DNA of 48,165 nt from a virus. This document shows, one piece after another, positions 9,019 to 26,975 of this stretch. The notes beneath the pieces were generated by a model, which was given only the letters and a program-made list of their open reading frames with translations, was not told the DNA's origin and made no database searches. Position numbers and translations under genes: made by a program. Each line of letters opens with the position of its first letter. The stretch's first letter is position 1. The stretch spans positions 1 to 48,165 of the IMG/VR virus record IMGVR_UViG_3300042882_000352; one strand, written 5' to 3'.

Positions 9019-9429
9019 ATGTCAACAAACCCAATATTTTACACTGTAATTGATGGTGAGGGAAATATTACTGCGTCGCAAGTAACTCAGGATCCTAATT
9101 TCCCTGTTCAAGAGGGATACAGGGTAGTAAAAGACCAGGTTCCCAACTACGACGGCAACCGCGAATCTATCGTCAGAATAACTCCTGTTCCTTCGACTAG
9201 TAACGAAGTTCAGTATGAGATTATTGATTTTTCATCAGAAGTCATTGCGGATATTACTATTCTTGAAAGGAATAGTGCGTTAGATTCTTCTGACTGGACG
9301 CAACTGCCCGATGTCCCTCTATCGTCAGAACAACTCAATTTATGGCGAGTTTACAGACAGGAATTAAGAGATATTCCTCAACAAACAGGATTTCCTGATA
9401 CTGTCGTTTGGCCAGTGAAACCGGAGTAA
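9019..9429 (+). CDS. Phage tail assembly chaperone-like protein
   Basis: The 136-residue protein ends in the characteristic block LWRVYRQELRDIPQQTGFPD followed by a VWPVKP-type tail. This is the signature of the phage tail assembly chaperone family (Phage_tail_APC type) that accompanies fibre or adhesin genes. The N-terminal about 95 residues are beta-rich (FYTVIDGEGNITASQV) and could bind the neighbouring fibre. It is flanked by a 5-base gap upstream and 3 bases downstream, and the next gene is the kelch-like fibre, its likely client. ATG at 9019. Role as a fibre/tail assembly factor is from the family; the client is inferred. Confidence 0.75.
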   Translation: MSTNPIFYTVIDGEGNITASQVTQDPNFPVQEGYRVVKDQVPNYDGNRESIVRITPVPSTSNEVQYEIIDFSSEVIADITILERNSALDSSDWTQLPDVPLSSEQLNLWRVYRQELRDIPQQTGFPDTVVWPVKPE

Positions 9430-10524: not shown

Positions 10525-11133
10525 ATGAAAAATAAAGAGTTGTTCGATAGTTTTGGTGCAATTTATATTAAGGATGTTATTCCTAAAGATCTAACACACT
10601 TTTTAACTCATGTTATGATGAGACAGCAGCACGAGATGAAAATCCATGGGATACCTTCTGACGACGAGCAAGTAAAAAAAGCTCTAGCCTGTATGAACCA
10701 CGACATCACCTTTGAAACTGTGGGCGAGCGTATTTGGCCTTTTTTAGAAAATGTATTAGGTGAAGAGTTAATCCCAACGTATAGTTACGCTCGCTTATAC
10801 ACTAACGGTAATGTTTTAGAAGAACATACTGATAGACCTCCTTGTGAAATATCAATTACTATCCAACTAGGCCGATCACACCACTACTCTTGGCCAATTT
10901 ACGCAGGCAAAAAAAGATTTGACTTAGCTGAAGGAGATGGTGTATTATATAAAGGACATGAAGTTCCTCATTGGAGAAATGTGTGTGAGGGTCCAGAGGG
11001 GTACTACTCAGGGCAAATGTTCTGTCATTTCGTTAGAGCCAAAGGTCTTTTTGCAAAGTATGCTGGAGACGAGCGATGGGAAGGCGAGATGCCTTTTGAA
11101 AGATTTAGAACTTCGGATATGAGCCTAAAATAA
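10525..11133 (+). CDS. 2-oxoglutarate/Fe(II)-dependent oxygenase-like protein 1
   Basis: This 202-residue protein has a double-stranded beta-helix oxygenase signature. The metal-binding His-x-Asp is H101-T-D103 (in LEEHTDRPPCE) and the distal His is H149 (VPHWR), preceded by the turn LAEGDGVLYKGHE. The sequence SYARLYTNGNVLEEHTD is typical of small phage and marine-bacterial 2OG oxygenases. By family it would couple 2OG decarboxylation to hydroxylation of an unknown substrate. It opens the accessory island, 24 bases after the kelch-like fibre, with a GAGGG-type ribosome site, and its TAA overlaps the next ATG by one base. The substrate cannot be read from the sequence. Confidence 0.8.
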   Translation: MKNKELFDSFGAIYIKDVIPKDLTHFLTHVMMRQQHEMKIHGIPSDDEQVKKALACMNHDITFETVGERIWPFLENVLGEELIPTYSYARLYTNGNVLEEHTDRPPCEISITIQLGRSHHYSWPIYAGKKRFDLAEGDGVLYKGHEVPHWRNVCEGPEGYYSGQMFCHFVRAKGLFAKYAGDERWEGEMPFERFRTSDMSLK

Positions 11134-11723
11134 TGATTAATAGTGAGAATGATCTACGAGTTTCTAAGTACGGAATTTCTTGGGAAAGTGTTCTATCTAG
11201 TGATGAAATTGAAATAATTCACGAGATAGCTGATGGGTTTAAAGGTATTACTGGTGAATCTGGTAAAATAATGAACGCCAACTTAGAAAATACTGAGTTA
11301 AGACGAAGCTTTGTTATTTGGCTTGAGAACAATCAAAACACACATTGGTTGTATAAAAAAATAACCGATGCTGTTTTGCGAATAAACGCTGAAAGATATC
11401 AATTTGAATTGCTAGGCGCTCAACCTATTCAGTATACTGTATACGAAGAGTATAATAGAGGAGAATATTCTTGGCATAACGATATCGTTCCTTTTACTGA
11501 CCACTCAGTTAGAAAGTTGAGTGCATCGATACTACTTTCTGATACCTCTGAATTTGAAGGAGGTTCGTTTCTTTTTTCTCCTGATGGTGAACATATAGAG
11601 ATTGAACAACATAAAGGAAGGATGATTGTGTTTCCTTCGTGGATCCCTCATTGTGTGACTCCTATTCTAAAAGGAAAAAGAATATCATTGGTAATGTGGT
11701 TGTATGGTAAAAATTTTAGATAA
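11133..11723 (+). CDS. 2OG-Fe(II) oxygenase, prolyl-4-hydroxylase-like
   Basis: The 196-residue protein shows EYNRGEYSWHND with H115-x-D117, then SASILLSD...FEGGSF, then MIVFPSWIPHCVTPILKGKR with distal H173 and a 2OG-binding R183-I-S185. This is the canonical prolyl-4-hydroxylase/PiuC-like 2OG oxygenase arrangement, with all metal and cosubstrate ligands intact. By family it hydroxylates a protein or small-molecule substrate in the cytoplasm. It is translationally coupled to both neighbours through TAATG overlaps. Prolyl hydroxylation of a phage protein is possible but not demonstrated here; the substrate is unknown. Confidence 0.85.
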   Translation: MINSENDLRVSKYGISWESVLSSDEIEIIHEIADGFKGITGESGKIMNANLENTELRRSFVIWLENNQNTHWLYKKITDAVLRINAERYQFELLGAQPIQYTVYEEYNRGEYSWHNDIVPFTDHSVRKLSASILLSDTSEFEGGSFLFSPDGEHIEIEQHKGRMIVFPSWIPHCVTPILKGKRISLVMWLYGKNFR

Positions 11724-12286
11724 TGAAAAAAATTGATATGTATCCATCGTCAATTTACATTGATGGTTATTATAATGCAAATCACATAGAAAAGCTTACG
11801 AAAGAAGCTATCGCTCTATCAGAGCTTGACAGCATAAAAAATTCTTGTAGTGTTCGCGATGGGTGGCAAAGCGCAAAAGATATATATAAATTTCCTTTGT
11901 TTTCTAAAATTGGCGATTATATCCTACACAAAACAAAAACAGAATTGTTGAAAAACGATTTTGAGCCTTTTATTTCCGCGATGTGGTTAAATGTACACAA
12001 TAAAAATGGTTTTAATCATGTGCATGTGCATCCTGGTGGATGGTACTCGGGAGTTTACTATATAAAATGTTCAGAAAGATCAGGAAGAATCAAATTCACT
12101 GATCCTAGACCTGGTGCAGAAATGAGTATATATCATCAAGCAGTCGAAAGAGATATACATGCGATTAGTCCAAAGGTCGGTGATTTGATTTTATTCCCCT
12201 CTTGGCTTCCTCATTTAGTAGAATCTAATTATGATGACGCTGATAGAATTTCTTTGTCTTTTAATATTGAATTAAATAATGTATAG
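11723..12286 (+). CDS. Putative 2OG-Fe(II) oxygenase of the TIGR02466 type
   Basis: The 187-residue protein has the block WLNVHNKNGFNHVHVHPGG then SGVYYIK...GRIKFTDPRPG and LILFPSWLPHLVESN...RISLSFN. The N-x-H-x-H-P plus SGVYY pattern and the FPSWLPH distal His (H164) with R175 match the TIGR02466 family of putative 2OG-Fe(II) oxygenases. The usual HxD is replaced by closely spaced histidines (H99, H101, H103), as I recall for that family. It starts inside the TAATG junction with the previous gene and overlaps the next by 8 bases, so it belongs to one translationally coupled operon. Substrate unknown. Confidence 0.75.
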   Translation: MKKIDMYPSSIYIDGYYNANHIEKLTKEAIALSELDSIKNSCSVRDGWQSAKDIYKFPLFSKIGDYILHKTKTELLKNDFEPFISAMWLNVHNKNGFNHVHVHPGGWYSGVYYIKCSERSGRIKFTDPRPGAEMSIYHQAVERDIHAISPKVGDLILFPSWLPHLVESNYDDADRISLSFNIELNNV

Positions 12287-12887
12287 CGTAAAAATTATTG
12301 ATGATTTTTTTGATTCTCCTAAAGAAGTTAGGGATTATGCTCTATCTCAAAGATTTTATAAAAGACCAGGAAACTATCCAGGTATTAGAACAGACAGAAT
12401 ATCTGATATAAACCCCTCCCTTTTTCATCATACGATTATCAAAGTAACTAGTTTATACTTTAATAAAGATAATCTAGTAGAGTACGATTCTATATGTAAT
12501 TTTCAATTAATCGATGGTAAGTATGTCGATGGTTGGATTCATCAAGACGATTTGGGTTATTTTGATGTTGCAGGAGTGATTTACTTAACTCCCGATGCTC
12601 CTATAAAGTGCGGAACCTCTATATACAAGGCTATATCGTCGGTAATCGAGTGTCCTAAATTACCTCCAGTTCAATTTACTTCAGACGACGAGTGCTTTGA
12701 GCATCACACAAAAGAACAATCGCTATTCAACTCTCAATTTTTAAAAATAGCAGATATAGGAAACGTCTATAATAGAGCGGTTATATATCCTGTAACCGAT
12801 TGGCATACTCAATCGGGGTTCTTTGGAAAAAATAAAGAAGATTCTAGACTAACCATGGTTTTTTTTATAAAGTTTAAATTATTATGA
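12279..12887 (+). CDS. DUF6445-like / 2OG-oxygenase-fold protein
   Basis: This 202-residue protein begins SVKIIDDFFDSPKEVRDYAL and contains YPGIRTDR, then GWIHQDDLGYFDVAGVIYLTP with H88-x-D90, a CGTSIYK segment, and near the end DWHTQSGFFG with H176 and R190 in the right order for a distal His and 2OG-binding Arg. The layout resembles DUF6445-type proteins, which look like divergent double-stranded-beta-helix oxygenases. Catalysis is inferred from spacing, not from a strongly conserved signature. It overlaps the upstream gene by 8 bases and the downstream gene by 4 (ATGA). Confidence 0.65.
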   Translation: MYSVKIIDDFFDSPKEVRDYALSQRFYKRPGNYPGIRTDRISDINPSLFHHTIIKVTSLYFNKDNLVEYDSICNFQLIDGKYVDGWIHQDDLGYFDVAGVIYLTPDAPIKCGTSIYKAISSVIECPKLPPVQFTSDDECFEHHTKEQSLFNSQFLKIADIGNVYNRAVIYPVTDWHTQSGFFGKNKEDSRLTMVFFIKFKLL

Positions 12888-13921
12888 TAAAAAATATAGA
12901 TTATAACGTTCTTGAGAATGAACTAAAAAATATATCAAATTCAAATAAATATGAAGATAAGTTGGAGTGTGCTTATCATTATGGTCATTTTGGGTTTAAT
13001 GCTTATACTTTGAAATATTTGAAGGACGCTAACTATCTCGACGAAGAAGCTTTCGATAAACATTTAGGCCAATTAGATTCTACCTATCATCCTAATTGTA
13101 AAAAACAATCAGAATTAATATTTAACAACTATTCTTCTATTGAAAGAGGTAATTGTGATTTTTTATCTGTTGATGAATTTGAAATTGTTTTTGACGACTA
13201 CCATCTAAACCAAAGAGAAATTGGGATTTACATACACATTTTACCTTTTATAGAATCTGTTAAAAAAAGAAGTAAGTTTAAATCCATAAAAATTAATTGT
13301 AACGAGAGAATGCGTGAATTATTTAATATGTATTTTCCTTATATTGAAATAGGAACGTCAACAAATAAAGTATCCTACTACCAGTTGATTGAAAACGTCT
13401 ATCAAAATGGTGGTTCTTCTTTAATAAGAGAAGCGGTGAAAGGTATTTCAAAAAGAGTAATCAGAAACAAGAACCCTAGTTTTATTGGCGTAAATTGGTT
13501 TGCTAACAATATCTACGATAGATATCGTTCTATTCCTATAGGACTATTAATCAATACTGTAGGAAGTCACTATAAAGATTTAAATGTTATGTCTTTACAG
13601 TATAATAATCCTGAGTATGAAATTGACATATTCAACAGATACTCAAAAAACAAAATAGCCGAGGTTTATGATAACGATATACAGTCTACTCCGTTGGAGA
13701 TATTAGAGGCAGTGAGTCGGTGCTATTGTTTTGTAGGAATTCAAAGTGAGGCTGCAATGATGGCATATTGTCTGTGTGGTATTCCAACAATCGTTACAGC
13801 CTCTTCTCCTAATATGTATTGGTATTTTCTTGACGGGCTAAACCCATTTTTACACTCAGTAAGAATGCGCTTTTCAGGCGATTACGATTACATTATTAAA
13901 AATATAAGAAAGTTGTTATGA
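12884..13921 (+). CDS. Glycosyltransferase-like protein (GT-B C-terminal half resembling GT9/GT41-type)
   Basis: The product is 345 residues long and AT-rich in coding sequence. The C-terminal half reads like the nucleotide-sugar-binding lobe of GT-B enzymes: FIGVNWFANN, a LNVMSLQYNNPEYE strand, then TPLEILEAVSRCYCFVGIQSEAAMMAYCLCG and IPTIVTAS. This parallels the 'side-domain, D..ISVDTA..HLAGALGKP' arrangement of GT9 heptosyltransferase and TPR-linked glycosyltransferases. The N-terminal half (about residues 1-110) is not recognised. No classical catalytic residue can be named, so glycosyl transfer is a moderate-confidence inference. It overlaps both neighbours by four bases, embedded between oxygenase-like genes. 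Confidence 0.5.
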   Translation: MIKNIDYNVLENELKNISNSNKYEDKLECAYHYGHFGFNAYTLKYLKDANYLDEEAFDKHLGQLDSTYHPNCKKQSELIFNNYSSIERGNCDFLSVDEFEIVFDDYHLNQREIGIYIHILPFIESVKKRSKFKSIKINCNERMRELFNMYFPYIEIGTSTNKVSYYQLIENVYQNGGSSLIREAVKGISKRVIRNKNPSFIGVNWFANNIYDRYRSIPIGLLINTVGSHYKDLNVMSLQYNNPEYEIDIFNRYSKNKIAEVYDNDIQSTPLEILEAVSRCYCFVGIQSEAAMMAYCLCGIPTIVTASSPNMYWYFLDGLNPFLHSVRMRFSGDYDYIIKNIRKLL

Positions 13922-14571
13922 TGGAATATCAAAATTATTTTTTATATCAAATCGCTAATTCAGATATTAGGCATTATCCTTGGACTCATGTATTATTCAA
14001 GGATATTTTTCATTCTAATCACTACGATTTATTATTGAACAATCTTCCAGACGAATCTTATTTAATAGATATTACAAAAGTAAACAAACATCCTGTCGAC
14101 TATCCAAACAATCGTTTGATACTTAATAATTACGACGCTTTGCCGGTTATCCAAAAACAGTTTTGGGTTGATCAAAACGACTTTTTTACGGATGGAAAGC
14201 TCAAAGATATGTTGTTGAAAAAGTTCTGGCCTCTGTTGATCGATAGAATTGGGCAACAACATATACATAAAGTTGAGTTTTACGACACATTTCAATTAAC
14301 CAAAGATCTAAAAGGGTATGTGTTAGCAGCTCATCCTGATGCTTTCAATAAAGTTTTTACTATCGTTATGAATCTACCTAAAGATAATTTTAACGCTAAT
14401 ATGGGTACGGTAGTGTATAATAACGACAAAGAAATAGTTTATAATTCTAAGTACTTACCAAACACTGGGTTTGGAGTGTTCAGGAGTGATAACTCCTGGC
14501 ATGGTGTAGAAGAGACTGACGAAGATAGATGGACTATACAATATACAATATGGGGTAAAGACAAGGGCTAG
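13918..14571 (+). CDS. 2OG-Fe(II) oxygenase-like protein, divergent
   Basis: The 217-residue protein has a C-terminal half with KGYVLAAHPDAFNKVFTIVM (H139-x-D141), MGTVVYN, then LPNTGFGVFRSDNSWHGVEE (H195) and DRWTIQYTIWG (R204). The order His-x-Asp, about 54 residues, His, about 9 residues, Arg is that of 2OG/Fe(II) oxygenases, and the PNTGFGVF turn is reminiscent of the family. The N-terminal about 120 residues are not recognised. It overlaps the glycosyltransferase-like gene by four bases and is followed by a 15-base gap to the radical SAM gene. Substrate unknown. Confidence 0.6.
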   Translation: MMEYQNYFLYQIANSDIRHYPWTHVLFKDIFHSNHYDLLLNNLPDESYLIDITKVNKHPVDYPNNRLILNNYDALPVIQKQFWVDQNDFFTDGKLKDMLLKKFWPLLIDRIGQQHIHKVEFYDTFQLTKDLKGYVLAAHPDAFNKVFTIVMNLPKDNFNANMGTVVYNNDKEIVYNSKYLPNTGFGVFRSDNSWHGVEETDEDRWTIQYTIWGKDKG

Positions 14572-14586
14572 ATTGACTTTTATATT

Positions 14587-16194
14587 ATGAAACCAAAAAT
14601 ACTTTTAGTGTATCCTAACTTACCTTTGATGATGGCTCCTGCTATCAGTATGGGTATTTTCAATGCTTTATGCAAACAGCACGAGTGTGACGTTGAGTTA
14701 TTTGAGACTACTCAATACAGCGACGCTTACTCAAACAGACACATTCGTATGACTGAGATTGGTGCTAATAGACCAAACAAAGACGACGAAGTCAAGGATA
14801 TGTTTCATATCAAACCAACGTCAGAGATCATTCCAGATTTTATTGCTCACGTTGAAACGTTTAATCCAGATTTAATTCTAATGAGTGTTCAAGAAGATGT
14901 TTGGACTATGGCGCAAACGCTACTAAGTTCAATTAAACATCTAAACGTTGAACACATCTTAGGAGGAATATTTCCCACCTCAGCATCTCATATAGTTTTA
15001 GGTAATCCACTTGTTAAACGAATTGCTGTACACGAGGGTGAAAATATAGTCATTCAAGCTATTAATTGTTTGAAGACGGGTGGCAACTTAAACTCTATTG
15101 ATGGTATTAAATATAAAGATAGATTTGGGTTGATCCAAAGTAACAAACTTCCTGAGCTTTGTGATATATCAAAGGTTATGCCGGACTTTACGTGTTTTGC
15201 TGATTATAGATGGCAAAGACCTATGGGTGGTAGGTTGTTTAAAAGAGCTGTAAGTATGGAAACGTATCGTGGATGTCCTTATAACTGCACGTACTGCAAT
15301 AGTCCTGGTACTAGGGAGTTTTCTAAGACTAATGGTACTGGTAATTTCATGCGTAGAAAATGCGCTGAAACTATAGAAAAAGAATACTTACATTACAGAG
15401 ATTTATATAATCCTGATTTAATTATGTTCCAAGACGATAGTTTTCTTGCTAGACCTAAAAAAGAAATCTTTGAGTTTTGTGAGATGTGGAGTAAATATAA
15501 AGTTCCATTTTGGTTTAATACTCGCATAGAGAATTGTGATCCAGATATTTTATCAGCATTAAAAGATGCTGGAGTGTATCGTATGACTTTTGGTTTAGAG
15601 AGTGGAAACGAAGATTATCGAGATAAAGTTCTAAGGCGTGGAGTTAAAAACGAAAAGTATATTGAATATTTTAATTATATTAATGATAGCAATATTCCAT
15701 ATAGCTTAAATGTTATTATAGGTATGCCTTTTGAAACTAGAGAGATGGTACTAGAAACTGCTGACGTGGTTCATGCTAGTAGGGGATATGACGGATTGAC
15801 TATATCTATGTTTCAACCATATCACGGAACAGAAATGAGAAAGATGTCTGTAGAGAATGGGTTTTTATCTAATTCGTATATCAATGGCCAAGATAGCAAT
15901 GAAATGGGTGGTGGCTATCTAGATTCTTGGGCGCTTAATATGCCTGAACCCTATCTACAGCAAGATGACGTGAACAGATTAGTTAAAACGTTTGCCTTGT
16001 ATGCTCACTTTCCTAAGGAAAGATGGTCTGAGGTGTATGAAGCAGAAACAAACGAAGATATATACAAAGAGTTGATGTCACATTACCAAAAGGAGTTCTT
16101 TGGGGATATTCAACAAGGTGGGGTAGATAGAATCAATTCTAAATTCTGTAATAAGCACGATTCATCAAGTACGTATCAATATGAATCAATATAA
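14587..16194 (+). CDS. B12-binding-type radical SAM enzyme
   Basis: This 535-residue protein has a Rossmann-like N-terminal region (KILLVYPNLPLMMAP at the start, FNPDLILMSVQEDVW near residue 95, HILGGIFPTSAS and VKRIAVHEGENIV near residues 120-155) matching the cobalamin-binding domain of class B radical SAM enzymes. It is followed by the [4Fe-4S]-binding C230-x3-C234-x2-C237 (GCPYNCTYC). Downstream are MFQDDSF, MTFGLESGNEDYRDKVL and VIIGMPFET, typical of the radical SAM TIM-barrel. By family such proteins perform radical methylation or C-C/C-S chemistry; the substrate is unknown. It overlaps the next radical SAM gene by 14 bases, implying a joint pathway. Confidence 0.85.
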   Translation: MKPKILLVYPNLPLMMAPAISMGIFNALCKQHECDVELFETTQYSDAYSNRHIRMTEIGANRPNKDDEVKDMFHIKPTSEIIPDFIAHVETFNPDLILMSVQEDVWTMAQTLLSSIKHLNVEHILGGIFPTSASHIVLGNPLVKRIAVHEGENIVIQAINCLKTGGNLNSIDGIKYKDRFGLIQSNKLPELCDISKVMPDFTCFADYRWQRPMGGRLFKRAVSMETYRGCPYNCTYCNSPGTREFSKTNGTGNFMRRKCAETIEKEYLHYRDLYNPDLIMFQDDSFLARPKKEIFEFCEMWSKYKVPFWFNTRIENCDPDILSALKDAGVYRMTFGLESGNEDYRDKVLRRGVKNEKYIEYFNYINDSNIPYSLNVIIGMPFETREMVLETADVVHASRGYDGLTISMFQPYHGTEMRKMSVENGFLSNSYINGQDSNEMGGGYLDSWALNMPEPYLQQDDVNRLVKTFALYAHFPKERWSEVYEAETNEDIYKELMSHYQKEFFGDIQQGGVDRINSKFCNKHDSSSTYQYESI

Positions 16195-17158
16195 AATACC
16201 TTTATCGATAGACAGAGCTGTTATTGAAATAAACGGCGGGTGTAACTATTCTTGTCAAATGTGCCCTCAAACAACTGGTCGTGGCAAAAATTGGCTAAAG
16301 AAAATATCACTCAAAGAGTTTGAGCGAGTTGTCGCTGAGTGTGCTGAGTATGGTTTGAATGTTGTTAATCTTGAGGGCTCTGGCGAGCCAACCTTGAACA
16401 GAGACTTACCAAAATATATAGAGATCGTTCGTAAATATGGAGCTAAGCCTTTCATATACACAAACGGATATAATTTGTATGGTAGTTTTATGCGAGAGTG
16501 TGTTGATGCTGGTTTAGCTCTTGCTAGATTTTCCATCATTGGATACAACCAATTGAAGTATATGCAATGGATGTCACAAGATTCATTCAATGTTATTAAA
16601 CAGCACGCAAAAGATATGCAAGACTATATTAAACTATCGAATGCTGATTGCATAGTGGCTTCTTATCATCTTATACTAGACAACGATAATGTTGATTACG
16701 AGGTTGAGCAATATCGTAAGAACTTTATTGATCAAGTTGGTAGTCATGCTGAAATTTGGAAAATGCATAATTGGTCTGGGGAATACGACTCCGACTATAA
16801 AAGAAGGGGTAATAAGAGATCTTGCGGAAGACCTTTCTCACCAGACTTAACGGTTAGAGCTGGTGGTACTAAAGGAACGAGATTGTCGATAGCTCCGTGT
16901 TGTCAAACTTTGGGTAAAGATGATTTAGCTGATTTAGGATCCATTCAGAATAAATCTATCGAAGAGGTTTGGAATGGACCAGAATATCAATTACTAAGAA
17001 AACTACATACAGAGAAAAGGTTCGACGAAATTCCTTTCTGTAAGGATTGCGACTTCTTGTATGAAGATAATGATGTGTTGGTTTGGAAAAATAACGAGTT
17101 GGTTGATATAAACAAAATGAAAGGCACTAGCTTTAAGCTTGATGATTTTATTAAATGA
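16181..17158 (+). CDS. Radical SAM enzyme with SPASM/Twitch-type auxiliary cluster region
   Basis: The 325-residue protein has the radical SAM cluster motif C21-x3-C25-x2-C28 (INGGCNYSCQMCPQT), the GSGEPTLN 'GGE' strand, and a C-terminal cysteine-rich part with C215 (SCGRPF), C240-C241 (APCCQT), LGSIQNKSIEEVWNG and C287-x2-C290 (FCKDCDF). That pattern is typical of SPASM/Twitch domains holding auxiliary Fe-S clusters, used in peptide maturation, aminoglycoside-type dehydrogenation and related reactions. The substrate cannot be deduced. Its start lies inside the upstream radical SAM gene and its stop overlaps the next ATG (ATGA). Confidence 0.85.
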   Translation: MNQYKIPLSIDRAVIEINGGCNYSCQMCPQTTGRGKNWLKKISLKEFERVVAECAEYGLNVVNLEGSGEPTLNRDLPKYIEIVRKYGAKPFIYTNGYNLYGSFMRECVDAGLALARFSIIGYNQLKYMQWMSQDSFNVIKQHAKDMQDYIKLSNADCIVASYHLILDNDNVDYEVEQYRKNFIDQVGSHAEIWKMHNWSGEYDSDYKRRGNKRSCGRPFSPDLTVRAGGTKGTRLSIAPCCQTLGKDDLADLGSIQNKSIEEVWNGPEYQLLRKLHTEKRFDEIPFCKDCDFLYEDNDVLVWKNNELVDINKMKGTSFKLDDFIK

Positions 17159-17754
17159 ATAATATTTTTACCTTATGCAGCACATCCAACAAAATTCAGC
17201 ACTTTGAGGGGGTTATTGACCCGTCAATTATTTCTTGGGAGGACGTAGCGGATTATTTTTCCGTAAGAACAATTAAATCCGTTGAATTGATTAGAACTAA
17301 AAAAATTAGCATTCCTAAGATAAGATTATATCAAGACGTAGATTTTATTTTAAATGAAATATCAACAGGAGCATCTTTTTGTATATCTAAATTTTTTAAT
17401 GTAAGCTATAAAACTAGTGTTTTATGGGAGCAATTTTGTGATTGGTATCCTAATTTAGGGGTGGATTTTCATTTATACGGTGGATTATTACCTGAGTCCA
17501 CTTCGTTTCCCGCTCATAACGACTTAGCTAATAATTATATTATACAGTTTGATGGGCAATGTGAGTGGGTAATATACAAAGAGCAAGCTTCTTTTGAGGA
17601 AGCTTTTAATTATAATATTATTCCAGAGGATAGGCTAACCGAAGAGCGCAGAATCATATTAAATCCTGGCGATATTATATACATTCCCTCAGGTAAATAT
17701 CACAAATGTATTCCTTTAGGAAAAAGACTTTCGCTAAGCGTCCCTATTTTATAG
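17155..17754 (+). CDS. JmjC/cupin-like Fe(II)/2OG oxygenase
   Basis: The 199-residue protein has STSFPAHNDLANNYIIQFDG with H121-x-D123, WVIYKEQ, and a C-terminal LNPGDIIYIPSGKYHKCIPLG with distal H183, followed by KRLSLSVPI. This is the arrangement of cupin_4/JmjC oxygenases of the ribosomal-oxygenase type: a metal HxD, the 'PGD..YIPSG..H' turn and the final strand. By family these hydroxylate proteins. The substrate here is unknown. It overlaps the SPASM radical SAM gene by four bases and is separated by six bases from the sulfotransferase gene. Confidence 0.75.
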   Translation: MNNIFTLCSTSNKIQHFEGVIDPSIISWEDVADYFSVRTIKSVELIRTKKISIPKIRLYQDVDFILNEISTGASFCISKFFNVSYKTSVLWEQFCDWYPNLGVDFHLYGGLLPESTSFPAHNDLANNYIIQFDGQCEWVIYKEQASFEEAFNYNIIPEDRLTEERRIILNPGDIIYIPSGKYHKCIPLGKRLSLSVPIL

Positions 17755-17760
17755 GTATAT

Positions 17761-18723
17761 ATGAACGAAAAATTAATAATCATTACTCAAATACATAGGA
17801 GTGGGGGTACTCTTCTATCACAATTGTTTGACGCACATCCTCAATTACATGCACACCCTAGCGAGCTTGAGATTTGGAAGCCAAAACAATTGTGGGGTAA
17901 ACTAGACACTTACGTAGATTTCAACCCAAAAAATAAATCCTGGCAAGAATGTTTTTTTGAGTTAGAACAAAAAAATTTAACTAATGCTGGAAGAAGGGGA
18001 ATATACAATAAACCAGGATTTAACCAATTTTCCAGAGATGAAACTTACAGATTTGATTATTCGATTGACGAGCATGCAGAATTATTTAAAAATTATTTCG
18101 AAGAATTAACTGTAATTTCTAGAAAATCGATTGTTATGATTTATTTACTTTCGTTTTTTCGCGTATGGAACAAGACCAAATACACCGAAAAAAAATACAT
18201 AACAGCATTGATTGCTAATATGTGGTGTGACCAATTATCAATTATTAGATTTTTTTCTGACTTTCCTGACGCTAAGATAATTTTTGTGTTGAGAAGACCT
18301 GATACGTGGTTGAAATCAGCTCTTATCCACAGAGCATTCAAAGAAGACGATGAATCTGCTTCCATCTGTCTGTTAGAATATTGGAAAGATTCGGTTAGAA
18401 ATTTATACGAGTTTAGTGAGATATATGGTAACAATATAGTTCCTATAGTATACGAAGATCTAACAAACCAACCAGAACACATTTTAAGAAAGCTCTGTAA
18501 TATTATACAGATCGATTTTCATCCGTGTCTTTTGACACCGACATTTTCAGGAGAAAAAATCTATCCTAACTCATCTTTTAACATAGACAAAAAATTAATT
18601 GTTTCTGATGATAGTAGAGAACCTCCCAAATTTACCGAAAGAATTAATTTACACTTAAGTAAATTTTACATGCCTGAATACAATTTAACTAGAAAAATAA
18701 TTTTAGATAGGTATTATTCGTGA
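17761..18723 (+). CDS. PAPS-dependent sulfotransferase
   Basis: This 320-residue protein opens with LIIITQIHRSGGTLLSQLFD followed by HPQLHAHPSELE. This is the 5'-phosphosulfate-binding loop and active-site region of the sulfotransferase family. The 3'-phosphate-binding motif is recognisable as IIFVLRRPDTWLKSALIHR near residues 178-196, and VPIVYEDLTNQPEHILRKLC is the conserved 'YEdL..dP...l..l...l' segment. By family it transfers sulfate from PAPS to a hydroxyl group of a glycan, protein or small molecule. The acceptor is unknown. It shares a four-base overlap with the APS-kinase-like gene, so donor synthesis and use appear coupled. Confidence 0.85.
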   Translation: MNEKLIIITQIHRSGGTLLSQLFDAHPQLHAHPSELEIWKPKQLWGKLDTYVDFNPKNKSWQECFFELEQKNLTNAGRRGIYNKPGFNQFSRDETYRFDYSIDEHAELFKNYFEELTVISRKSIVMIYLLSFFRVWNKTKYTEKKYITALIANMWCDQLSIIRFFSDFPDAKIIFVLRRPDTWLKSALIHRAFKEDDESASICLLEYWKDSVRNLYEFSEIYGNNIVPIVYEDLTNQPEHILRKLCNIIQIDFHPCLLTPTFSGEKIYPNSSFNIDKKLIVSDDSREPPKFTERINLHLSKFYMPEYNLTRKIILDRYYS

Positions 18724-19130
18724 GTAAGATATTAATTATGGGGTTACCTGGCTCAGGTAAAACGACATTAGCCTCAAAGTTGTTTTTGGAAGTGTGTAAA
18801 GATAAAGACTCTGTATTTTGGATTAACGCGGATGCAGTTCGTCAGCTTTATAACGATTGGGATTTTTCTTCTGTAGGAAGATTAAGGCAAGCAAAAAGAA
18901 TGTGTGATATGTGTGGCGAGCATCCTGACGCACTCAATATAGTCGATTTTATAGCTCCTACTGAAGAAATAAGGAACGTTTTTAAGGCTGATTTTGTAAT
19001 ATGGATGAACACAATTTCTAAGGGTAGATTTGACGACACCAATAGAGTGTTTGAGCCTCCCTCAAAATACGATTTAAAAATAACAAATTTTAACTATTCC
19101 GTTACGCATATTGCATCTATGATAATATAA
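18720..19130 (+). CDS. Short adenylylsulfate kinase-like protein (PAPS synthesis)
   Basis: The 136-residue P-loop protein has GLPGSGKTTLA (Walker A, about residues 8-18), FWINADAVRQLYNDWDFSSVGRLRQAKRM in place of the APS-kinase 'DGDnvR..L...lgFs..dR..nirR' block, a VDFIAPTEEIR strand corresponding to the 'FISPfr..R' segment, and GRFDDTNRVFEPPSKYDL corresponding to the shortened lid. It is clearly shorter than the usual about 200 residues and the nucleotide-binding lid is reduced. By family it phosphorylates APS to PAPS, the donor for the overlapping sulfotransferase. It starts with GTG at 18720 inside the upstream stop (GTGA). A related P-loop kinase with another substrate remains possible. 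Confidence 0.7.
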   Translation: MSKILIMGLPGSGKTTLASKLFLEVCKDKDSVFWINADAVRQLYNDWDFSSVGRLRQAKRMCDMCGEHPDALNIVDFIAPTEEIRNVFKADFVIWMNTISKGRFDDTNRVFEPPSKYDLKITNFNYSVTHIASMII

Positions 19131-19162: not shown

Positions 19163-19495
19163 TTGGCGGCATACTCAGAGATTACAATAGAACAAGGTGC
19201 AACATTCTCTTCAACGGTAAATGTTGAAGACGTTTACGGTACGGCAGTAAATTTAACGAATCATACAGCATCGTCAATGATGCGTAAATCGTACCATTCT
19301 ACAACAGCCACCACAATCACAGCAAACGTGACAGGCACGGCTAATGGTGAAATCACAATATCTATTACAGCAGCAAATACCGCAAACATTACTGCTGGTC
19401 GTTACGTTTACGATTTAATTATAAGAGATAACGCAAACACGGTCACTCGTGTTATTGAGGGTATCGCAACAGTTCTTCCGTCGGTGACTAGATAA
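19163..19495 (+). CDS. Small beta-rich virion-associated protein (110 aa)
   Basis: The 110-residue product (AAYSEITIEQGATFSSTVNV ... ITAGRYVYDLIIRDNANTV) has the all-beta, Ig-like look of small phage proteins that sit upstream of fibre genes, where an 'EQGATF' strand followed by a 'GRYvYDL' strand is common. The start is TTG at 19163. It is chosen because AAGGAG lies six bases upstream at the end of the late-promoter region and because the next in-frame ATG (19278) would remove the conserved N-terminus. Its stop overlaps the next ATG. A structural role is inferred. Confidence 0.7.
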   Translation: MAAYSEITIEQGATFSSTVNVEDVYGTAVNLTNHTASSMMRKSYHSTTATTITANVTGTANGEITISITAANTANITAGRYVYDLIIRDNANTVTRVIEGIATVLPSVTR

Positions 19496-19781: not shown

Positions 19782-21899
19782 ATGGCAAACACCGTAATTC
19801 AACTCAAGTATTCTAATGTAACTGGAACTCCACCGTTACTCAATATTGCTGAACCAGCATATTCAAACGTTTCAAATAAACTTTGGATGAACGATGGCTC
19901 TAGTGTGGTTGCAATTGGTGGTAAATTCTATACTGATACAATTGACGCGTCAACATCAAACAACACAGCAAACACCATCGTTAAAAGAGACACAAGTGGA
20001 AACTTCTCTGCAAATGTAATTACCGCAAACAACGCGACTATCAACGGGTTTGATATTTACACTTTTGCTAATTCTGCATTTACTGCAGCTAACGTAGCTT
20101 TCCAGTCTGGCGGTGTTACTGCTGGTGGATATGCTAACTCAGCTTACCTACACGCCAACAGTGCTTACATAAGTCAAAACACAACGGGGCAATATGCAAA
20201 TAGTGCATATCTTCATGCCAATTCAGCGTACGTAAGTCAGAATACAACTGGTGTTTACGCTAACACAGCGTACTTACAAGCTAATAGTGCCTACGTAAGT
20301 CAGAATACTACTGGTGTTTATGCTAACTCTGCTTTTGCTACAGCCAATACGGCTGACCAAAGAGCGGTTACATCGGGTGACTATGCTAATAGTGCATACG
20401 CTCACGCTAATACTAAATTCGCAAGTGCTGGTGGTACTATTTCTGGCGACGTAGTCTTAACTGGTAATTTAACAGTATCCGGTGAAACGACTTACGCAAA
20501 CACAACAACAGTAAATCTTGGTGATAATATTATCACTTTAAACGCTGACATTCCACAAGGTCAAGCCCCTTCTGAAGACGCTGGTGTTGAGATTGATAGA
20601 GGATCGTCTGCAAACGTTGGTGTTATCTGGAATGAAACATCTGATGCGTGGACATTTACAAACGACGGTACAAACTACAGTAATATAGCATCAAGTGCTG
20701 CAGAGTCTTACGCTAACAGTGCTTACCTACATGCTAACAGTGCTTACGTAAGTCAAAACACTACTGGTGTTTATGCTAATACTGCCTATCTACACGCCAA
20801 TAGCGCTTACATAAGTCAAAACACTACTGGTGAGTACGCAAATAGCGCTTATCTACAAGCTAATAGTGCATATATCTCACAAAACACTACTGGTGTTTAT
20901 GCTAACACAGCATACTTACACGCTAATAGTGCTTATGTAAGTCAGAATACAACTGGTAGTTATGCTAACACAGCATACTTACACGCTAATAGCGCTTATA
21001 CCGGAGCTAACACAGCAGACCAACGAGCAGTTACATCAGGCGATTATGCTAACAGTGCTTATACACAAGCTAATACTGGTACACAATACGCAACAAGTGC
21101 TGGCTCTTACGCAAACAGCGCCTACAATCAAGCAAACACAGCTCAGTTACACGCTAACGCAGGATACGATCAAGCAAACACAGGTACACTAAACGCCACT
21201 TCAGCTGGTGTTTATGCTAATACTGCCTATCTACACGCCAATAGCGCTTATGTAAGTCAAAACACTACTGGCGTTTACGCTAACTCAGCCTACGCTGCCG
21301 CAAACACCGCTGATCAGCGAGCTGTAACTTCTGGTGATTATGCAAACAGCGCTTACGCTCACGCTAACACTAAGTTTGCTTCAGCGGGTGGTACAATTTC
21401 TGGTGATGTGTCTATTACAGGCGACTTGTTCGTTTCAGGTAATACCGTAACCCTAGACACATCGACAGTTAGAACAGAAGACTCTCTACTACAATTAGCG
21501 GCAAATAACGTTGCTGATATATTAGACATTGGTTTCTATGGTCAGTATAACGATGGTGCAGATAAATTCTCTGGTTTGATTAGAGATGCTTCTGATGGTC
21601 TATTCAAGCTATTCACAGGTGAAACTTCAAATCCAACGGGTAATGTGGTTTCTTACGGAGTAGAAAATAGAGCAACACTTGATGCTAACTTTACTGGTGG
21701 TAACGTATCAGGATTATTTAATGCGATATCAGTATCAGATGGTGGATTAGGTGTTAAAACTTTATCTGCCAACGGAGTTATGATAGGTAACGGAACTAGT
21801 CCTGTATTAACAGTAGGCTCATCTACTGAAGGTCATATATTAACAATTAGTTCTGGTGGTGCCCCAACGTTCCAACACTTAAATGGTGGTTCATTCTAA
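19782..21899 (+). CDS. Repeat-rich tail fibre without S74 domain, ending NGGSF
   Basis: This 705-residue fibre-like protein starts ANTVIQLKYSNVTGTPPLL, a short N-terminal module similar to that of the fibre at 22476 and reminiscent of phage-attachment N-termini. Residues about 115-205 and 305-530 are dominated by repeats of YANSAYLHANSAYVSQNTTG and [17 protein letters not shown] cassette at about residues 210-308 (GDNIITLNAD, WNETSDAWTFTNDGTNYSN) is shared with the fibre at 5726. The C-terminal part (RTEDSLLQLAANN, GFYGQYNDGADKFSGLIRD) is a trimeric-fibre domain type. It ends LNGGSF and lacks a self-cleaving chaperone. Host attachment is inferred. Confidence 0.8.
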   Translation: MANTVIQLKYSNVTGTPPLLNIAEPAYSNVSNKLWMNDGSSVVAIGGKFYTDTIDASTSNNTANTIVKRDTSGNFSANVITANNATINGFDIYTFANSAFTAANVAFQSGGVTAGGYANSAYLHANSAYISQNTTGQYANSAYLHANSAYVSQNTTGVYANTAYLQANSAYVSQNTTGVYANSAFATANTADQRAVTSGDYANSAYAHANTKFASAGGTISGDVVLTGNLTVSGETTYANTTTVNLGDNIITLNADIPQGQAPSEDAGVEIDRGSSANVGVIWNETSDAWTFTNDGTNYSNIASSAAESYANSAYLHANSAYVSQNTTGVYANTAYLHANSAYISQNTTGEYANSAYLQANSAYISQNTTGVYANTAYLHANSAYVSQNTTGSYANTAYLHANSAYTGANTADQRAVTSGDYANSAYTQANTGTQYATSAGSYANSAYNQANTAQLHANAGYDQANTGTLNATSAGVYANTAYLHANSAYVSQNTTGVYANSAYAAANTADQRAVTSGDYANSAYAHANTKFASAGGTISGDVSITGDLFVSGNTVTLDTSTVRTEDSLLQLAANNVADILDIGFYGQYNDGADKFSGLIRDASDGLFKLFTGETSNPTGNVVSYGVENRATLDANFTGGNVSGLFNAISVSDGGLGVKTLSANGVMIGNGTSPVLTVGSSTEGHILTISSGGAPTFQHLNGGSF
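20127..21369 (+). repeat. YANSAYLHANSAYVSQNTTG repeat array
   Basis: There are more than ten degenerate units of about 20 residues, with highly similar DNA, interrupted by the shared cassette at about 20409-20706. A second 'NTKFASAGGTISGD' join occurs at about 21365. The array is a probable shaft and a recombination substrate with the fibres at 5726 and 22476. Confidence 0.85.
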
Positions 21900-22475: not shown

Positions 22476-25400
22476 ATGGCAAATACAATAATTCAAATTA
22501 AAAAGTCTACGGTAAGTGGAAACGTACCATCAGTATTACAGCCTGGTGAGTTGGCAATCAACGTCGAAGATGGTGATTTGTATTATGGTAATAGTAATGG
22601 TATCGTAACGTTATTTGATGCTGTTACTGAGCCTGCAGGTTTGGATAGCGAGATCCAATTTAACAATATGGGTTCGTTTGGATCCAATTCAGATTTCACC
22701 TACTCCTATGCTCGCGGCTCATTATCGGTACCCGATATCCAAGCATCATACGGTACAATTGGTGGATATGATGTTAGTAATACTTTAGCTCAAGTAATAG
22801 ATACTAGCTCAAGTGCTGTTGGTATCGCTAATAGTGCTTTTAATGCTGCAAACAGCGCAAGTAATACCGCAAGCAGTGCAGGATCATATGCTAATAGTGC
22901 GTTCAGTAAAGCAAACACTGCCTCGGGTGCTAATGGACAAATTCAATTTAATTTAAACGGCGCTTATGGTGTGTCTAGTAATTTATATTTTGAGACTTCA
23001 AATAACACACTTTATGTATCTAACATTAAGGCGATACAGAACTTAGATGCTCAAAATGTAATTGCATACAATAAATTTTATGCTGGTATAGCAACAGAAT
23101 CATCTACTCCACTACCCAATCTAATTGCTCAGTTTACTGGTAATACGGATTCATACGTTCAAGTCAACGCTCAAAATATTGATCCACATGGCTCTGCGGA
23201 TTATGTCATCACTGCTGATGTTGGTGACGACGAAAGAAATTATATTGATTTAGGTATGCAAGGTTCTCAATTAGAACAAGGTGCATTGTTTCCTTTAGAT
23301 GGTTATTTGTATGTTCAAGGAAACACTAGTCAATTAGGCGGTAATTTAATAATTGGTACTACGTCAGAAACACCAGGCATAAAAACTAGAATTGTTGCTG
23401 GTGGTACTGAATTGTCTAATGTAGTTGCAGAATTTAGTCAAGATGGTATTACTTTCATTCCTGAGATTACTTCTAATACAACTAGTAGAATATCATCACA
23501 TGCTAATAGTGCTTACATACAAGCTAATACAGGAACACAATACGCAACAAGTGCTGGTTCATACGCTAACTCAGCTTTTAGTGTTGCTAATACTAAGTTT
23601 AACACCTCAGGTGGTACAATCTCAGGTGATGTTTTTGTTGAAGGAAAAATAACAGCCAACACAATAGGCGGAGATGAAGGTGGTGAAATTCTTCTCGGGA
23701 AAGCTTTGTCTAACACGACTCTGTCCGGTACGGGTGTAACCATTGACGTATATCAAAACAAACTGCGAATATTTGAGCAAGGCGGTTCAGCTCGTGGTGC
23801 GTTTATTGATTTAACGTCTGCTAGCGCTGGAGTAGGAACAGATTTATTAGCAAGTTCAAGTGGAACAGACTCTGTTGCAAGAAGCTCTGCTCAAGCTGCG
23901 TATCATCATGCAAACGGTGCATACGTTCAAGCTAACACAGGAACAACATTAGCGCAATCTGCTTACGATGCCGCCAACAATTCTGTCGACACTTGGGTTC
24001 GTGGTGCTGCTAATAGTGCTAGTTCATATGCTAATAGTGCTTATAGTCAAGCTAATACCGCAACGACTAATGCTTCAACCGCCGACCAGAGAGCCGTAAC
24101 ATCAGGTAGTTATGCTAATAGTGCTTACGGTCAAGCCAATACAGCGACTACGAACGCAGCAACAGCAGACCAACGAGCCGTAACATCAGGTTATTATGCT
24201 AATGCCGCGTTTGATATTGCTAATACAGCAAACCTAACTGCATCAAGTGCTAGTTCGTATGCTAACTCAGCTTATTTACAAGCTAACACAGCAACAACAA
24301 ATGCCTCTACGGCTGACCAACGTGCTGTTACATCTGGTGATTATGCTAATGCCGCTTTTGGTATTGCTAATACATCAAACTTAACTGCAACAACTGCTAG
24401 TTCGTATGCTAACTCAGCATATACTCAAGCTAATACAGCTAATACACTGGCACAATCTGCATTCGATACAGCAAATACTAAGTTTAATTCTACTGGTGGA
24501 ACTATTACTGGTTTTGCCAACGTGTCTAGTAATTTGTCTGTTGGTACGTATATAGATATTGCTACAGATTTAGCAGATCCTTCATACAAAGAAGGTAGGG
24601 TATTCTACGACTCAGGCGCAAAATCTTTAGCGTATTTTAACGATAGTTCATCTTACGTTCACGCTGGTCAGGATATAGTAATACGAGTTTGGAACAATAC
24701 TGGTTCAACATTGCCTAGAGCAAACTGTGTATTTATTTCAGGCGGAGCTTCAGCAAACGGATACCCAAGCGTATATCTAGCTAATGCATCTTTGGCTGCA
24801 AATGCTGAAGTTATTGGAGTAACGACTACAGATATTCCTCCCAACGCTTATGGGTTTGCTCTAACGGCTGGTAGACTTGAAGGATTAAATACATCATTAC
24901 TTACTGCGGGTGCAGAGTTGTACTTGTCTGCAAGTGAGACTGGTAAATTTACTCAGACTGTTCCTGCTACCCCAAACATTCCATTAACTATTGGGTATGT
25001 GACTAGCTCAGATTTAACTAACGGCACCATGCTTGTTAACATACACTTAATGGAAGGAGCCAACAAGACAACAGGTTCTATTCTGTTCGCTCGTGATAAT
25101 AAAATTGACCAAGATAACACAGATTTATATTACGATTATGTAAATCATAGGTTGGGTATTGGTACAAATAACCCAACAGCAAGCTTACACGTTGTGGGAT
25201 CTGGATTGTTTACGGGTAACGTAACAATTTCAGGTAACTTACTAGTTTCAAACGCTCAATCTATTACTACATCGCAGTTAACTGTTGGTGGTAACACGAT
25301 TATTCTTAATGATGCTGTTACAGGAACCCCAACATCTAACGCGGAAATTATTGTAAATAGAGGCACTTCAGCTAACGTTTACATTAAATGGGCTGAAGAT

Positions 25401-26975
25401 ATCAACGAATGGGTTATGTTTGAAGATGGGGCATATCCAGAAGGGCATATTCTACATTCAGAAAAAACATTTAGTACTTGGACACAATATACTGCTGCAT
25501 CCGCATACGAGAAATTAACTCATCCTGTTGGTGGTGACGTGTCAAATACGACTAATGAACTTGCAAAATCAGGTTCACAAACAGCAAATATAGCAAGCTC
25601 TCATGCTATTGCGGGTTACACTCAAGCTAACACGGCTACAACTAATGCCGCAACTGCTGATCAGCGAGCTGTTACATCTGGTGATTATGCTAATGCTGCT
25701 TTTGGTGTAGCTAACACAGCTGCGACTAATGCTTTGAGTGCAGGTTCGTATGCTAACGCCGCTTTTGGTATTGCTAATACTGCAACGACTAATGCAGCAA
25801 GCGCTAGCTCTTACGCTAACTCAGCATACACTCAAGCTAACACCGCGACTACGAATGCAGCTACCGCTGACCAAAGAGCAGTCACTTCTGGTGTTTATGC
25901 TAATGCCGCTTTTGGTATTGCTAATACTGACGTTACAACTATATCTACTACAGCAGGTATTTACGGTAATAATACAATTGTTCCTGTAATAACTTTAGCC
26001 GCAAATGGTAGAATATCATCGATATCAAACGTTGCAATTACTGGTGTAACGGGTCCTACTGGTCCTACTGGTCCAACTGGTCCAACTGGTCCCACTGGTG
26101 CCGATTCGACAGTCGCTGGTCCTACTGGTCCAACTGGTCCAACTGGTCCAACTGGTGCCGCATCAACGGTTCCAGGTCCCACTGGCCCTACTGGCCCTAC
26201 TGGTGCAGCATCAACGGTTCCTGGTCCTCCTGGTCCTACTGGTCCAGCGTCATCCGTTGCTGGTCCTACTGGTCCTACTGGTCCAACTGGTCCTACTGGT
26301 CCTACTGGTCCTTCGGGCGCAACTGTTGATAATACTGATAGAACATTAAAATCATTAAGATTTACAGGTGTTGGTGGTGATTCGGGGAATGGTGCAAGTT
26401 TTGATGGTTATGCACTCTATCAACAAGGTGGTGGTTGGACTCATCCTTATCCAGACTTATGTATTGGATATCATACGGGTATTAAGATTGGTGCTTATTT
26501 TGGTTACAATGGCACAAGAATTTATAATAACTCAGATTGGGTCACCCAGATTGCTAGTTTTGGTGACGGAGATAATAACTTTCGCAGTTACTACAACGTT
26601 ATTGCCTATGCATCGGACCGTAGACTGAAAGAAAATATCCGTCCCATTGAAAATGCAGTATCTAAAGTGTGTTCCATAACCGGTATGGTATTTGACTGGA
26701 AAGATAGTGTAACCGACCTAGGATTCACACCAGTTGATAAAACTGAAGTGGGTGTTTTTGCTCAAGATGTTGAAGCGGTTTTACCAGAAGCAGTAGCAAT
26801 AGCACCTTTTGATTACGACTGGGAAAAACCTGATAAAAGTAAATCGGGCGAGAGATACTTGACTGTTAAATATGAGAAAATAGTTCCGTTGTTGATACAG
26901 GCTATTAAAGAACAGCAGAATCAACTGGATGAACTACGTGATTTAATTAAAGGACAAACAAATGCCAACTTATGA
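22476..26975 (+). CDS. Giant tail fibre with collagen-like repeats and S74 chaperone
   Basis: This 1,499-residue fibre has an N-terminal module ([37 protein letters not shown]) of the phage attachment type. Repeat regions at about residues 115-155, 340-380, 470-675 and 1045-1150 carry ADQRAVTSG and [16 protein letters not shown] units. A domain with [12 protein letters not shown] and [18 protein letters not shown] resembles the cassettes of the other fibres. It also has a collagen-like GPT segment (about residues 1193-1281) and a C-terminal Peptidase_S74 chaperone from about residue 1378 (SDRRLKENI ... [13 protein letters not shown] ... [14 protein letters not shown]). By family the S74 part trimerises the fibre and cleaves itself off. 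It is the largest likely receptor-binding protein here. Confidence 0.85.
22828..25930 (+). repeat. ADQRAVTSG / YANSAY repeat blocks in the giant fibre
   Basis: Blocks of units such as [16 protein letters not shown] and [18 protein letters not shown] occur at about 22828-22920, 23490-23590, 23880-24490 and 25600-25930, separated by unique beta-rich domains. They are of the same type as in the fibres at 5726 and 19782. Confidence 0.8.
26049..26318 (+). repeat. Collagen-like Gly-Pro-Thr repeat tract
   Basis: Runs of the nine-base unit GGTCCTACT and close variants encode Gly-Pro-Thr triplets, broken by short ADSTVA, AASTVP and ASSVA linkers and one Gly-Pro-Pro. It forms a collagen-like stalk just before the fibre tip. 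The DNA repeats make length variation by slippage likely. Confidence 0.9.

Follow-up and report, generated by a model that had tools for sequence, protein, structure and literature searches.

A short-lid APS-kinase-like gene overlaps a sulfotransferase gene in a marine T4-like phage

APS is the required substrate of any APS kinase, and it is also the substrate or product of the AprMBA system. In bifunctional PAPS synthases the kinase is N-terminal and an ATP sulfurylase is C-terminal. SAR11 (Pelagibacterales), an abundant ocean bacterium, enters this picture through a gap already on record: AprBA is present in Ca. Pelagibacter ubique, whereas sat and cysDNC are missing (PMC5069961). The aprMBA genes of Allochromatium vinosum share a transcript with sat, which directly precedes them (PMC3779200). 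The APS kinase CysC of M. tuberculosis holds APS through Asp480, Arg483, Phe492, Arg497 and Phe576 and has its P-loop lysine at K456, while Arg559 and Lys562 of the lid contact ATP and are tied to ATP binding and activity (PMC4373884). Among phages, PF13469 sulfotransferases have been noted in OM43 phages and in Synechococcus phage S-SRM01, and what phage sulfotransferases do has been described as unclear (PMC10580990).

We analyzed a window of 48,165 bases, the whole of one virus fragment from a marine phage. Genes for a terminase, tail sheath, portal, scaffold, major head protein and helicase mark it as a T4-like myophage. Its major head protein shares 66% identity with the counterpart in Synechococcus phage S-H38 and 63% with those in Methylophilales phages. 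The feature of interest in this window is a gene for a short-lid relative of APS kinase that overlaps the gene of a sulfotransferase. A sequence-only reading had already singled out this pair, and the coordinates, GTG start, length and four-base overlap it gave are exact (Table 1); the overlap is the GTGA at 18720-18723.

Table 1. Features of the window and the SAR11 loci with the related gene order
Feature	Coordinates	Strand	Evidence
Tail fibre assembly chaperone-like gene flanking the cluster	9019..9429	+	phrog_4912 E 8e-20
Run of 2OG-Fe(II) oxygenase and related genes (11133, 11723, weakly 13918) with DUF6445 (12279)	10525..14571	+	profile matches
B12-binding radical SAM protein, 535 aa	14587..16194	+	profile matches
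Radical SAM/SPASM protein, 325 aa	16181..17158	+	PF04055 E 2e-12, PF13186 E 2e-9
JmjC_2/cupin oxygenase-like protein, 199 aa, immediately upstream of sulfotransferase	17155..17754	+	PF08007 E 7e-13; phrog_8014 E 2e-36
Putative PAPS-dependent sulfotransferase, 320 aa, PF13469	17761..18723	+	Pfam E 8e-17; 5'-PSB loop 13-19, 3'-PB motif 176-186
Short-lid APS-kinase-like protein, 136 aa, GTG start, 4-base overlap with sulfotransferase	18720..19130	+	PF01583 E 2e-8; model pLDDT 95.8; top fold matches APS kinases (Z 17.4)
Tail-fibre-assembly-like gene directly 3' of kinase	19163..19495	+	phrog_3304 'L-shaped tail fiber protein assembly' E 4e-23
Large tail fibre protein, 1499 aa, candidate sulfation target	22476..26975	+	phrog_5668 tail fiber E 2e-31
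Kinase and nucleotidyltransferase just upstream of aprMBA	L120:8001-12821; also L103, L112, L113, L117, L135, L137, L148, L162, L170

The upstream protein, which the sequence-only reading took for a sulfotransferase with PAPS-binding motifs, is a putative PAPS-dependent enzyme by family match and motifs. Its intact reading frame matches PF13469 over residues 6-254 (62.6 bits against a Pfam cut-off of 27), near full length, and has the 5'-phosphosulfate loop RSGGTLL and the 3'-phosphate motif VLRRPDTWLKS (R178...S186), both of which align to the CurM/OLS and TPST sulfotransferases and are common to the PF13469 family. The closest solved structures are the OLS/CurM polyketide sulfotransferases and the protein-tyrosine sulfotransferases. 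Unlike these family members, the window gene overlaps a kinase gene. We found no relative of the protein in 50,697 phage records and none by an exact-peptide scan of IMG/VR; across sulfotransferase subfamilies, divergence is too high for the 3' motif to be aligned.

The downstream protein had been described as having the APS kinase layout with a reduced lid, a description that holds for the P-loop, the APS-site residues, the fold and the lid, which is really deleted. PF01583 covers residues 4-89 only (34.8 bits against a cut-off of 21.1), and the cut-off of NCBIfam TIGR00455 is missed by far (27.7 versus 138.7 bits). Against the PDB, a profile of the kinase family (57 relatives) places 2yvu first at 1e-13, then 3cr7, 1d6j and PAPSS, with APS kinases filling nearly all of the next 25 rows. 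The sequence-only reading had proposed structure prediction and comparison with CysC as a check, and had named a better match to another P-loop kinase family as grounds against it. The AlphaFold model returns APS kinases or APS kinase domains in all 32 top Foldseek rows, and its best VIA-align match is the APS kinase 5cb6 (Z 17.4, rmsd 2.1, 136 residues aligned); no other family came out ahead of the APS kinases by profile or fold. The next fold neighbours are gluconate kinases (top Z 14.7, less than 3 Z units behind), which raises the alternative that the kinase acts on a sugar or cyclitol in surface glycan synthesis and that the sulfotransferase decorates the same glycan with no shared PAPS. 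Fused SAR11 copies adjoining SIS/GmhA-like genes, and the DHQS-like gene in L115, would fit such a role. The full APS-binding set is nevertheless conserved, and no sugar-metabolism genes lie beside the pair in the window; we regard this alternative as highly improbable.

Residue by residue, CysC D480, R483, F492, R497, F576 and K456 correspond to D38, R41, F49, R54, F104 and K14 of the window kinase, F104 being placed by extending the FTGI...YEPP alignment with 2yvu without gaps. In 54 relatives, K14, D38, R41 and F49 are conserved in 54/54 and R54 in 53/54, and F104 is F or Y in all 54. The mobile lid with its Arg and Lys is deleted: in alignments and model alike, a segment is missing between T98 and F104, and the protein has 136 residues versus about 175-200 in CysC. 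The conserved APS site and the deleted lid residues indicate that the acceptor site points to APS and that the ATP side has been remodelled. The kinase therefore shares with CysC and the APSK domain of PAPS synthases (PF01583, EC 2.7.1.25) the P-loop fold, the APS-contacting residues and the best profile, Foldseek and VIA-align matches, but since the lid is a defining feature of CysC we place it outside CysC, in a short-lid sister family with a probable APS-kinase-like function. Canonical CysC is inactivated when its lid is disturbed (PMC4373884), so the short kinase could instead be a degenerate, inactive relic beside a sulfotransferase that uses host PAPS. We find this barely credible: fifteen positions (K14, N36, D38, R41, D46, D48, F49, R56, Q57, R60, D76, P80, T98, F111 and P114) are invariant in the 54 relatives, unlike what is seen in relics.

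The kinase-sulfotransferase pairing recurs beyond chance. Peptide scans for kinase relatives yielded at least 585 viral and at least 569 cellular coding stretches, of which the best 80 of each were kept. Among the matches listed, a sulfotransferase directly adjoins the kinase in 16 of 82 distinct viral loci, versus 4.0 expected if the kinase's position is given to a gene drawn at random from that locus (0/5000 draws). Eight of ten neighbour sulfotransferases that were checked score above a Pfam sulfotransferase cut-off (L001 and L005 fall below it), and several subfamilies are represented. Mapped on a tree of 79 kinases with many unresolved forks, the state of having an adjacent sulfotransferase switches 7 times. 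Overlapping sulfotransferase and kinase frames occur also in L001, L003 and L032. A Rhodoferax ferrireducens plasmid carries, in order, a tail fibre gene, a tail-fibre assembly chaperone gene (PF16778), a sulfotransferase gene and a kinase gene, the last two overlapping by 4 bases; as this repeats the gene order of the window in an unrelated element, it favours a fibre target. No PF13469 match (E<=0.001) was found in 19 of 30 kinase-bearing phage records, fragments among them and DLP6, Suzuki and Clavibacter 33 included; the product of the kinase may therefore go to sulfotransferases of the host, or into a different pathway, as well.

Several further observations concern the surroundings of these kinases. 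The run on the Rhodoferax plasmid, which is conjugative, appears to be a phage- or tailocin-like island (L188:579-6582). A small DUF2061 membrane protein repeatedly adjoins the kinase (L055:7170-7379 and about 14 other viral loci), a second cytidylyltransferase-like gene is often nearby (L097:7529-7999 and 13 other loci), and so is a 6-pyruvoyl-tetrahydropterin-synthase-like gene (L077:9066-9548).

Most kinase relatives are fused to, or followed by, a HIGH-type nucleotidyltransferase of ~125 residues with the invariant positions GRxQPxHxGH, NP and GRxVGY; the two occur as separate genes or as one fusion of 243-284 aa. The phrog_10255 "kinase" of Stenotrophomonas, Clavibacter and Xanthomonas phages (DLP6, Suzuki and others) belongs to the same kinase family as that of the window, with the nucleotidyltransferase fused at its C terminus and, in DLP6, Suzuki and Clavibacter phage 33, no PF13469 match in the phage. 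Phage proteins annotated "kinase" or "hypothetical" are two-domain fusions of the short kinase and the HIGH-type nucleotidyltransferase (L015:5998-6729, L016:5992-6729, L017:5992-6729). In domain order and in proposed logic (adenylyl transfer plus 3'-kinase), the fused relatives resemble PAPS synthase; they differ from it in a nucleotidyltransferase of about 125 aa that is NadM-like and not PF01747. Its only Pfam match is CTP_transf_like PF01467, the best PDB match of its profile is the archaeal NMN adenylyltransferase 1f9a (8.5e-10), and NCBIfam PRK01153 is matched at 1.4e-6, far below cut-off. We tried to identify it by sequence as the ATP sulfurylase Sat (PF01747) and rejected this, as PF01467 and NMN-adenylyltransferase-type PDB entries were the only matches. 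A fold search with the fused model says little of the nucleotidyltransferase fold, because its rows are filled by the kinase domain.

Both genes are found in most of the SAR11 genomes examined. We counted genes in 78 Pelagibacterales genomes, for which a completeness of at least 93 had been requested and which, where they come from single cells or metagenomes, may be missing genes. The nucleotidyltransferase is present in 60, the short kinase in 53 and a PF13469 sulfotransferase in 49, with Sat in only 4 and CysD in 4. All 4 CysD-bearing genomes are without the nucleotidyltransferase (Fisher p 0.002), and PF13469 is commoner with the short kinase (39/53 genomes) than without it (10/25; Fisher p 0.006), relatedness being ignored in both tests. 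When sulfotransferase genomes without Sat, CysD and any other APS kinase are considered, 31 of 34 have the short kinase. Unlike the kinase, the nucleotidyltransferase shows no significant correlation with the sulfotransferase in these genomes (p 0.27). Eight genomes have the nucleotidyltransferase but not the kinase, and six of them are without sulfotransferases (p 0.013), a pattern that would follow from AprBA using APS and sulfotransferases using PAPS. Among 28 kinase-bearing genomes picked through loci, 22 encode a sulfotransferase, 8 have another APS kinase that is longer, 2 have Sat and none has CysD.

Gene order adds to this distribution. Among the matches listed, the kinase region lies just upstream of aprM-aprB-aprA in ten SAR11 loci, usually with one CADD-family gene between; aprB scores 189.5 bits against a cut-off of 135.65 and aprA 999.8 against 641.75, and aprM is named by position only. 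Mapped on a tree of 73, this neighbourhood changes state 3 times, which may mean that few events lie behind it. On an economical reading of this gene context, the ATP sulfurylase that SAR11 seems to lack may be this nucleotidyltransferase, with the kinase as a candidate APS kinase, and the presence of the same small kinase family beside APS reductase may help fill a known gap in SAR11 sulfur metabolism. Coenzyme A synthesis (PPAT/DPCK), for which adenylyl transfer plus 3'-kinase logic also fits, was ruled out, as a canonical CoaE is present in 73/78 SAR11 genomes. In some SAR11 surface-polysaccharide regions, a fused kinase-nucleotidyltransferase is followed by an SIS/GmhA-like gene (L122:8001-9337, L114, L105), and a DHQS-like gene lies near the kinase in another locus (L115).

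Two other substrates have to be weighed against APS. NadR combines an NMN adenylyltransferase with a ribosylnicotinamide kinase, and the profile matches to archaeal NMN adenylyltransferases, together with the sub-threshold PRK01153 match, would suit an NAD-type pair of this sort with an incidental sulfotransferase neighbour. We consider this very unlikely, since the kinase is nearest to APS kinases by sequence and fold, the NadM motif PVQDI is replaced in the nucleotidyltransferase family by PNI with an invariant Asn, followed by a conserved YGRxVGY segment, and the repeated sulfotransferase and aprMBA neighbours would be left unexplained. The Campylobacter capsule pathway has a CysC-like kinase that acts on a phosphoramidate donor, and the kinase family might similarly phosphorylate the 3'-OH of another AMP-X or CDP-X group, which the neighbouring "sulfotransferases" would then transfer. 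The conserved aromatic pair demands only an adenylate- or cytidylate-like substrate, and the partner resembles NMN adenylyltransferases, not ATP sulfurylase. Links to several sulfotransferase subfamilies and to aprMBA both point to APS, however, and such a donor seems to us unlikely.

We return to APS as the likely substrate and to the setting of the pair in the window. The two genes form the end of a block of modification genes (2OG-Fe(II) oxygenases, DUF6445, B12-radical SAM, radical SAM/SPASM and JmjC_2/cupin), and block and pair together are flanked on both sides by tail-fibre and fibre-assembly genes. Our preferred explanation, which we think quite likely, is that the overlapping genes are a sulfation module in which the short-lid kinase supplies PAPS and the sulfotransferase uses it, likely on a tail fibre or surface target. 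The families, the fold, the conserved APS-site residues, the overlap and the recurrence of the pair are observed. The kinase would phosphorylate the 3'-OH of APS, probably making the sulfate donor PAPS, from which the sulfotransferase would pass sulfate to an acceptor; because the pair sits in a modification-enzyme block between tail-fibre genes, we infer that this acceptor is most likely a tail fibre or other virion or surface component. In favour of the module we count the profile, the fold, the APS-site residues, the sulfotransferase adjacency, the Rhodoferax plasmid, the SAR11 co-occurrence and the aprMBA neighbours, and against it the deleted lid, the missed TIGR00455 cut-off, the many phages without PF13469, the SAR11 copies in surface-polysaccharide clusters and the closeness of gluconate kinases.

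The earlier interpretation is supported as to the sulfotransferase, its APS-kinase-like partner, their functional coupling and the setting among fibre genes; it lacks support where it called the pair "self-contained". No partner nucleotidyltransferase was seen in any frame of the 48-kb window, which is a fragment of its genome, and no APS-making enzyme was recognised there. Since an APS kinase needs APS, the supply would have to be provided by the host or by parts of the phage genome beyond this fragment.

The dense block at 10525-17754 between tail-fibre genes suggests layered modification of the fibre, with the JmjC_2/cupin protein as a possible co-operating enzyme. Just 3' of the pair, at 19782-21899, lies a repetitive 705-aa protein with many YANSAYLHANSAY-type tyrosine-bearing repeats, which is a possible sulfation target. 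A further candidate fibre protein is encoded at 5726-8356. The B12-binding radical SAM protein shares 31-32% identity with genes found in L114 and L122, two SAR11 loci, where they precede the kinase by a few genes.

More tentatively, at just short of an even chance, the kinase and the ~125-residue NadM-like nucleotidyltransferase may constitute an unrecognised third type of sulfate-activating system in SAR11, taken by phages (or the kinase alone, as in the window) to sulfate their own or host structures. The nucleotidyltransferase would interconvert ATP plus sulfate and APS plus PPi, and the kinase would make PAPS; such a system would complete SAR11 sulfite oxidation (AprBA to APS to ATP plus sulfate) and feed sulfotransferases. 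A literature search found no paper describing phage sulfation of this sort or a SAR11 ATP sulfurylase of this kind. If true, a phage PAPS-making enzyme coupled to a sulfotransferase would mean that phages run sulfation themselves, and the SAR11 kinase and nucleotidyltransferase would be a concrete candidate for filling the sat/cysDNC gap.
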